From Gluconobacter albidus (GTDB lineage Bacteria > Pseudomonadota > Alphaproteobacteria > Acetobacterales > Acetobacteraceae): 64,000 nucleotides of DNA. This document shows, one piece after another, positions 25,305 through 25,617 of the stretch. Under the pieces are notes generated by a model. That model searched no databases and was not told the DNA's origin. It was given only the letters and a program-made list of their open reading frames with translations. Position 1 is the first letter of the stretch, and each line of letters begins with the position of its first letter. Position numbers and translations under genes: made by a program. The DNA is taken from NCBI RefSeq assembly GCF_002723915.1, contig NZ_BEWL01000002.1, positions 248,001-312,000 of the forward strand, read 5' to 3'.

Positions 25305-25617
25305 TGGTGTCCGCGAGAGGATTCGAACCTCCGGCCCCAGGATTCTTACCACTTCGGCTTTCACCGCCATGCCGCGAAGCATGTTCGTGGTCTGGACTGT
25401 CTCTTCACCACGACTGCGGAAACCGCAGCCAAGGTGTTGCCCGTACAGTCTCTACACCTTCGTTCCAGCGCACCGGAACGCTTGGCTCGGGATTGGCACG
25501 ATCGAGACGATCAGAGCGTTCCCCGAATTTGAGCAAATCCACCATGCGGTTTCCCATCATGGCGCCCAATTCAAAACCTTAGGAATCCTGTGCTCTATCC
25601 TGCTGAGCTACGCGGAC
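25305..25617 (-). tRNA. tRNA-Arg(CCU), split by a group I intron
   Basis: The 5' exon (25617 down to 25581, 37 nt) gives acceptor strand GTCCGCG, D-stem GCTC/GAGC, anticodon-stem strand CAGGA and loop TTCCT ending in anticodon CCT. The 3' exon (25344 down to 25305) begins AATCCTG, completing the 7-nt loop TTCCTAA and the stem CAGGA/TCCTG, then a 5-nt variable loop, T-arm GGAGG-TTCGAAT-CCTCT, acceptor strand CGCGGAC, discriminator A and an encoded CCA (repeated as CCACCA). It decodes AGG arginine codons. The 236 nt between the exons interrupt the gene exactly after the last anticodon base. Confidence 0.93.
25345..25580 (-). ncRNA. Group I intron in tRNA-Arg(CCU)
   Basis: The intron is 236 nt. 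The 5' exon ends in U and the intron ends in G, as group I splicing requires. Exon bases UUCCU can pair with GGGAA (25555-25551 on the minus strand) to form P1 with a U.G pair at the splice site. GTGTAGAGACTGTACGGGC (minus strand, near 25457-25439) and AAGAGACAGTCC (25405-25394) match the conserved R and S elements, and their GACTGT/ACAGTC pairing gives P7. GGCTGCGG/CCGCAGTC forms P8 between them. Size and motifs suit subgroup IC3, as in other bacterial tRNA introns. There is no open frame for a homing endonuclease. Confidence 0.88.

Follow-up and report, generated by a model that had tools for sequence, protein, structure and literature searches.

A tRNA-Arg(CCU) gene of Gluconobacter albidus split by a small group I intron that probably self-splices, and related introns in other alphaproteobacterial tRNA genes

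Structure of the split gene

The window, by which we mean the whole 64-kb stretch of Gluconobacter albidus DNA that was analysed, carries on its minus strand, from 25617 to 25305, a tRNA-Arg(CCU) gene in two exons separated by a group I intron (Table 1). The intron is inserted after anticodon base U36, between U36 and A37. With introns allowed, ARAGORN placed a 236-nt intron after nucleotide 37 of a gene that it labelled tRNA-Arg(cct), and the joined exons (25617-25581 plus 25344-25305) gave a full cloverleaf; the mature tRNA is 77 nt long, with its CCA encoded. A sequence-only reading of the window had proposed this gene, two minus-strand segments completing one cloverleaf around a 236-nt group I intron, and its coordinates and boundaries proved exact when examined by ARAGORN with introns, Rfam and covariation.

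The same reading had predicted that a standard tRNA scan may miss the gene, and this is the case. ARAGORN at default settings found 0 tRNA genes in the 64-kb window, and in an Rfam search of the whole window no family reached its gathering score; both overlook the split gene at default settings. That tRNA scans miss such intron-split genes is also stated in passages of PMC7717549 and PMC8450103. When the 501 bases surrounding the gene were searched, the Rfam Intron_gpI model (RF00028) matched 25373-25582 of the minus strand over its full model length, with 40.9 bits (E 4.3e-9) against a curated cut-off of 50, and in the whole genome this intron was the sole match up to E 10. As had been noted from the sequence, there is no protein-coding insert: 236 nt is too short to hold an endonuclease or transposase gene. 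A promoter and terminator scan gave no minus-strand prediction.

Table 1. Positions of the exons, intron helices and putative splicing elements in the window
Feature	Position	Strand	Evidence
tRNA-Arg(CCU) 5' exon	25581..25617	minus	anticodon CCU (25583-25581) at end; ARAGORN with introns, joined cloverleaf
Group I intron, 236 nt	25345..25580	minus	Rfam Intron_gpI match, helix covariation, intron-final G
tRNA-Arg(CCU) 3' exon, CCA encoded	25305..25344	minus	ARAGORN with introns
AUU before guide, predicted P10 with 3' exon AAU	25568..25570	minus	all three pairs in 34/41 rows
Predicted internal guide GGG, P1 with exon CCU, U.G at splice site	25565..25567	minus	3/3 pairs in 41/41 rows
P2 with GAAA-loop hairpin at tip	25540..25564	minus	P2 paired in 98.6% of cells, two-sided changes at 6/7 pairs
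P3	5' strand UUGCUC 25531..25536; 3' strand GGGCAA 25437-25442	minus	100% of cells paired, two-sided changes at 3/6 pairs
P4 enclosing P5	25487..25526 (P4 = 25521-25526 with 25487-25492)	minus	P4 invariant
P5	25496-25517	minus	two-sided changes at 8/8 pairs, 86.8% of cells paired
P6 and P6a	25456..25486	minus	P6 invariant; P6a two-sided changes at 8/8 pairs, 83.8% of cells paired
P7	5' strand GACTGT 25445..25450; 3' strand ACAGTC 25395-25400	minus	5/6 pairs never vary
P8 hairpin	25406..25436	minus	two-sided changes at 11/12 pairs, 71.0% of cells paired; weakest helix
P9 with P9a (25368-25383) and P9b (25355-25366, GAAA loop)	25348..25391	minus	alignment
Intron-terminal G (omega G)	25345	minus	G in 59/59 extracted copies

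The draft genome (3.29 Mb in 49 contigs, completeness 99.9) gave 43 tRNA matches, to each of which ARAGORN assigned an anticodon. The check for a second, intact tRNA-Arg(CCU), which would have lowered the importance of the split gene, found none among these 43 intact tRNAs. The set contains neither Ile nor Ala-UGC, and the draft tRNA complement is therefore incomplete. Default annotation of this genome would omit its only detected tRNA-Arg(CCU).

Distribution in the family and class

Of 200 family genomes searched by BLAST with the gene, that of the window among them, 73 gave full-length matches of 66-100% identity. The match in genome G093 was in two pieces, and other family genomes (G160, for example) have the exons contiguous, without the intron. 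Copies were extracted from 59 of the 73 full-length matches, that of the window included, and 14 were left out. All 59 have a 5' exon that ends in CCU, the same end as in the window, and an intron that ends in G, so that the U...G boundary pointed out earlier for the window, exon-final U and intron-final G, recurs in every copy. The intron measures 224-314 nt in 58 of the 59. The intron of one copy (L081, from G006) includes 10 consecutive N, so that its 213-nt length is uncertain. ARAGORN with introns labelled 46 copies Arg(cct) and 13 tRNA-His with a different junction; the latter were taken as Arg(CCU) because of their exon ends, GATTCCT and AATCCTGG.

Among the matches listed, all 26 genomes of the window's genus have the intron, and 48 match-free genomes stand outside that listing. 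Presence varies within some genera: of two genomes in one such genus, G020 matches over the full length and G111 gives no match. From its presence in all 26 listed genomes of the genus and its patchy occurrence in the family, we conclude that the intron has most likely been inherited here and gained or lost elsewhere. In flanks of mostly about 1.5 kb, the window itself is the only one of the 59 copies with its downstream acyl-CoA synthetase gene near the tRNA; its upstream 707-aa frame is found near the tRNA of 11 of the 59. With neighbouring genes so rarely kept, synteny says little. A 24-kb query from the window matched plasmids only partially and at conserved genes (22 records), and a phage search returned 6 records, each covering at most 23% of the query.

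Across the class, RF00028 detected introns in at least 31 of 385 genomes. It missed G056, which has the intron, and because of this miss we built a further model, R1, which matched in at least 46 of 372 class genomes and in at least 52 of 120 relatives. Filters were strict and few candidates were scored per genome, so the counts from both models are lower bounds. The window intron scores 253 bits with R1, whose alignment includes this intron, and the score is hence no independent test. The R1 matches in class genomes occupied 54 places, which reduced to 30 loci; 25 of these were used, the other five being repeated family copies. In a contig scan, the three of 8 matched stretches that were read (L184-L186) looked like coding sequence and chance matches, and the scan was not used.

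Intron structure and covariation

From the window intron sequence we wrote a structure with 79 pairs in 14 helices and scored it on an alignment of 41 of the 59 extracted copies, picked by hand; the other 18, and the two-piece copy of G093, lie outside it. Of the cells, 90.4% are paired, and 48 of the 79 pairs show two-sided changes. Shuffled controls had a mean of 79.6% pairing and 35.9 two-sided pairs, and on each of the five measures the observed value was reached by none of 500. Sliding the partners lowered pairing to 30-45%, in a comparison that favours the structure over its slid versions through its derivation from one aligned row.

The domains expected of a group I core, P3-P8 and P4-P6, were all present, together with P7 and the P3/P7 pseudoknot. 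The sequence-only reading had described a perfect GACTGT/ACAGTC P7 enclosing P8. This helix is indeed present in the window, but its sixth pair (T-A) is poorly kept in relatives, in 14 of the 40 rows having letters there. By analogy, P7 is the putative G-binding site. Elsewhere, the inner hairpin stem at the P2 tip is paired in 81.1% of cells, and two-sided changes occur at 2/5 pairs of P9, 4/5 of P9a and 4/4 of P9b. Folding energy of the bare intron was only moderately better than that of shuffled sequences (z -2.51, matched by 1 of 200 shuffles). The minimum-energy fold contains P4, P6a, P7, P8, P9a, P9b and 7/8 P5 pairs, and zero pairs of P2, P3, P6 and P9; the P3-P7 pseudoknot is beyond the folding program.

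Subgroup IC3 is defined by small introns with GAAA loops in P2 and P9. The IC3 introns of Azoarcus tRNA-Ile(CAU) and cyanobacterial tRNA-Leu(UAA) interrupt a different tRNA from the window's and have a different guide; they share with it an anticodon-loop site, a short guide and the GAAA loops in P2 and P9. The window intron is small, has GAAA loops in P2 and P9, and has no P5abc. Absence of P5(a-d) from IC3 introns is described in PMC11835236.

The guide sequence

GGGAA had been named in the sequence-only reading as the guide for exon UUCCU. We rejected this candidate. It is part of the P2 hairpin, whose tip with the GAAA loop is GGGAAACC, and the UUCCU/GGGAA pairing is complete in only 24 of the 41 aligned copies. 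The predicted guide is GGG in AUUGGGC: all 41 copies pair CCU completely with GGG, and each has U.G at the splice site. Among the 59 introns, TGGGC occurs in all and GGGAAAC within the first 110 nt in 33. The corrected guide matters to any splicing or retargeting test.

Proposed splicing and alternative explanations

We conclude, with a probability of about 0.96, that the locus is a tRNA-Arg(CCU) gene whose precursor carries a small self-splicing, IC3-like group I ribozyme. The gene structure, the splice-site signatures, the conserved or covarying helices and the guide-exon complementarity in relatives were all observed. Self-splicing itself, which the sequence-only reading thought likely, is very probable from group I chemistry and from a spliced homologue in Bartonella. 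The precursor of tRNA-Arg(CCU), the reader of AGG codons, would contain a small tRNA-type (IC3-like) group I ribozyme in which exon CCU would pair with the guide GGG, U.G marking the splice site. Guanosine bound in P7 would attack the 5' splice site; the freed U36 would then attack after the intron-terminal G, while AUU beside the guide would hold the 3' exon AAU (P10); and joining of the exons would yield an ordinary cloverleaf.

The homologue is BbgpI, the group I intron of tRNA-Arg(CCU) in Bartonella bacilliformis, which splices in vitro and in vivo according to PMC7717549. Like the window intron, it has tRNA-Arg(CCU) as its host, CCT at the boundary and group I stems P1-P9; its gene was unannotated, and tRNAscan-SE found it only with the intron removed (PMC7717549). 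The likeness is one of description. BbgpI belongs to a different alphaproteobacterial genus and was bench-tested, whereas the window intron is known from sequence.

It is very improbable that the intron is a decayed, non-catalytic remnant in a tRNA pseudogene, with AGG read by tRNA-Arg(UCU) through wobble. A tRNA-Arg(UCU) is present in the genome and could read AGG in this way, and AGG is uncommon: a mechanical selection of 31 long reading frames in the window has it at 67 of 17,230 codons. Against such decay, P3, P4, P6 and P7 are intact, both exons complete a tRNA, and the intron is kept in all 26 same-genus genomes among the matches listed. Still less credible is an unrelated insertion, for example an IStron or the remnant of a homing-endonuclease intron, that fell into the tRNA by chance. 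Nothing was found in its favour: an endonuclease or transposase gene would not fit into 236 nt, the splice sites are neat, the same site is occupied in family copies by introns of comparable length (224-314 nt in 58 of 59), and the Rfam match, the intron-final G in family copies and the helix covariation contradict it.

A different matter is whether the RNA acts alone. A host protein cofactor might be needed for a useful splicing rate in the cell, making splicing protein-assisted and not the work of an autonomous ribozyme. We regard this as doubtful. PMC7717549 notes a presumption that group I introns in vivo depend in part on protein cofactors; the same source describes self-splicing of the Bartonella homologue in vitro.

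A split tRNA-Arg(CCU) with a group I intron, the arrangement we favour here, is already known in kind, in host gene and in bacterial group, as follows from the reports of 1992 and 1999 and from those on Bartonella and on acetic acid bacteria. Introns of alphaproteobacterial tRNA-Arg(CCU) go back to Reinhold-Hurek and Shub 1992 and Paquin et al. 1999, as cited in PMC7717549. Those of Agrobacterium and other Alphaproteobacteria lie in the same tRNA as the window's, a likeness of description and not of sequence, and the 1999 paper speaks in its title of a sporadic distribution, which fits the patchy presence in the window's family. The suggestion that the present case newly extends the phenomenon to acetic acid bacteria did not survive. 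The footnote to Table 1 of PMC4596401 marks one tRNA (Arg) as interrupted by a group I-like sequence in five of the six acetic acid bacteria tabulated, representing Asaia, Acetobacter, Gluconobacter, Komagataeibacter and Gluconacetobacter, and this is very likely the same family and gene. That footnote gives no anatomy, guide or anticodon, whereas anatomy and a guide are described here for the window intron.

Related introns in other tRNAs

R1 was run on 100 loci preselected as intron finds of earlier searches, and all 100 matched. Read from the exon ends, the host tRNA was Arg-CCU at 64 loci and another tRNA at 36: Leu-UAA at 23, Thr-GGU at 6, Lys-UUU at 2, Thr-UGU, Lys-CUU and Arg-UCU at 1 each, and an unassigned tRNA with a long variable arm at 2. 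ARAGORN anticodons were mostly wrong for the copies in other tRNAs. Labels or junctions from an exon-matching script were overruled by exon-end reading for L160 (Arg-ACG), for L163, L164, L166, L172 and L064 (Leu-UAG), for L169 and L177 (Leu-CAA), for L178 (Arg-UCU), for L061 (Lys-CUU), and for L071 and L072 (Leu-UAA, low score); the script cut L174 and L182 at the wrong place, and their exons were read by eye. Related introns outside Arg(CCU), in Leu(UAA), Thr(GGU), Lys(UUU), Lys(CUU) and Arg(UCU) of Alphaproteobacteria, were seen at L063-L076, L163-L182 and L200-L204.

In Arg-CCU introns the triplet in the guide columns pairs with CCU in 64 of 64, and all have TGGG; in Leu-UAA introns it pairs with their own exon end CUU, not CCU, in 23 of 23. 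Since G.U counts as a pair, the three-pair test also scores the GGG of Arg-CCU introns as matching the exon ends of Leu-UAA, Lys-CUU and Arg-UCU. In the small groups the automatic test found own-exon pairing in 3/6 rows of Thr-GGU and in 0/1 each of Thr-UGU, Lys-CUU and Arg-UCU; we attribute the failed rows to shifted alignment columns, fitting guides having been read by eye. Guides of Lys-UUU and of the long-variable-arm tRNA were read by eye only, outside the automatic scoring. By eye, the small-group guides (Thr, Lys, Arg-UCU) apparently fit their own exon ends; here the retargeting reading is at its weakest.

In a tree made without exons and guide, from which a partial second match in L053 was left out, the host label needs 11 changes, the minimum possible being 7. 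Shuffled labels needed a mean of 33.4, and none of 200 shuffles was as low as 11; host labels are therefore strongly clustered. Starred branches force at least three changes for Arg-CCU, in quick trees most of whose branches are unstarred. A genome of the window's genus (G587) has a second intron, in a tRNA read as Lys(UUU).

We lean, at somewhat better than even odds, towards a single small, endonuclease-free lineage that moved among at least seven alphaproteobacterial tRNA species (Arg-CCU, Arg-UCU, Leu-UAA, Thr-GGU, Thr-UGU, Lys-CUU and Lys-UUU, plus the long-variable-arm tRNA), its guide of 3-4 nt being rewritten for each anticodon loop. The same reading, held at the same strength, includes several genomes with two introns in different tRNAs and a Leu-UAA copy travelling on enterobacterial resistance plasmids. 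If it is true, retargeting at the RNA level (reverse splicing into anticodon loops) would be directly testable. The wider interest is in the set of relatives, in which one ribozyme has a guide that differs with the host tRNA, a natural experiment on target change by group I introns. In cyanobacteria, tRNA-Arg, -Gly and -Lys are reported to contain group I introns (PMC5733544). Among the papers listed from the full-text literature searched, which excludes most subscription journals, we recognised no report of alphaproteobacterial Thr, Lys or Arg-UCU introns.

A 1.26-Mb plasmid record of Tritonibacter mobilis, which is unannotated, carries an apparent tRNA-Thr(UGU) with a related intron (L061:2897-3224). 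At L071 and L072, a long-variable-arm tRNA gene with the intron lies near tRNA-Leu(CAA); its joined anticodon loop is odd, 7 or 8 nt by eye and possibly UAG, and the tRNA is perhaps degenerate or unusual.

A Leu(UAA) copy near aac(3)-IId

A tRNA-Leu(UAA) gene with an intron of this lineage was found at L062:2925-3223, L205-L207:3001-3299 and L208:2947-3246. In all 5 records examined, about 2.5 kb or less separates it from aac(3)-IId, and the gene is 99.3-100% identical among them. Of 5426 complete E. coli genomes, 635 contain near-identical DNA, at 589 plasmid and 81 chromosomal places. Of 1293 matched plasmid records, 1280 have it at 90% identity or more, 1261 of them over at least 80% of the query. 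The intron gene may mark the source of the mobilised segment. No feature is annotated over it among the 20 E. coli and 30 plasmid matches listed; in one Acinetobacter match, a hypothetical protein is annotated over it.
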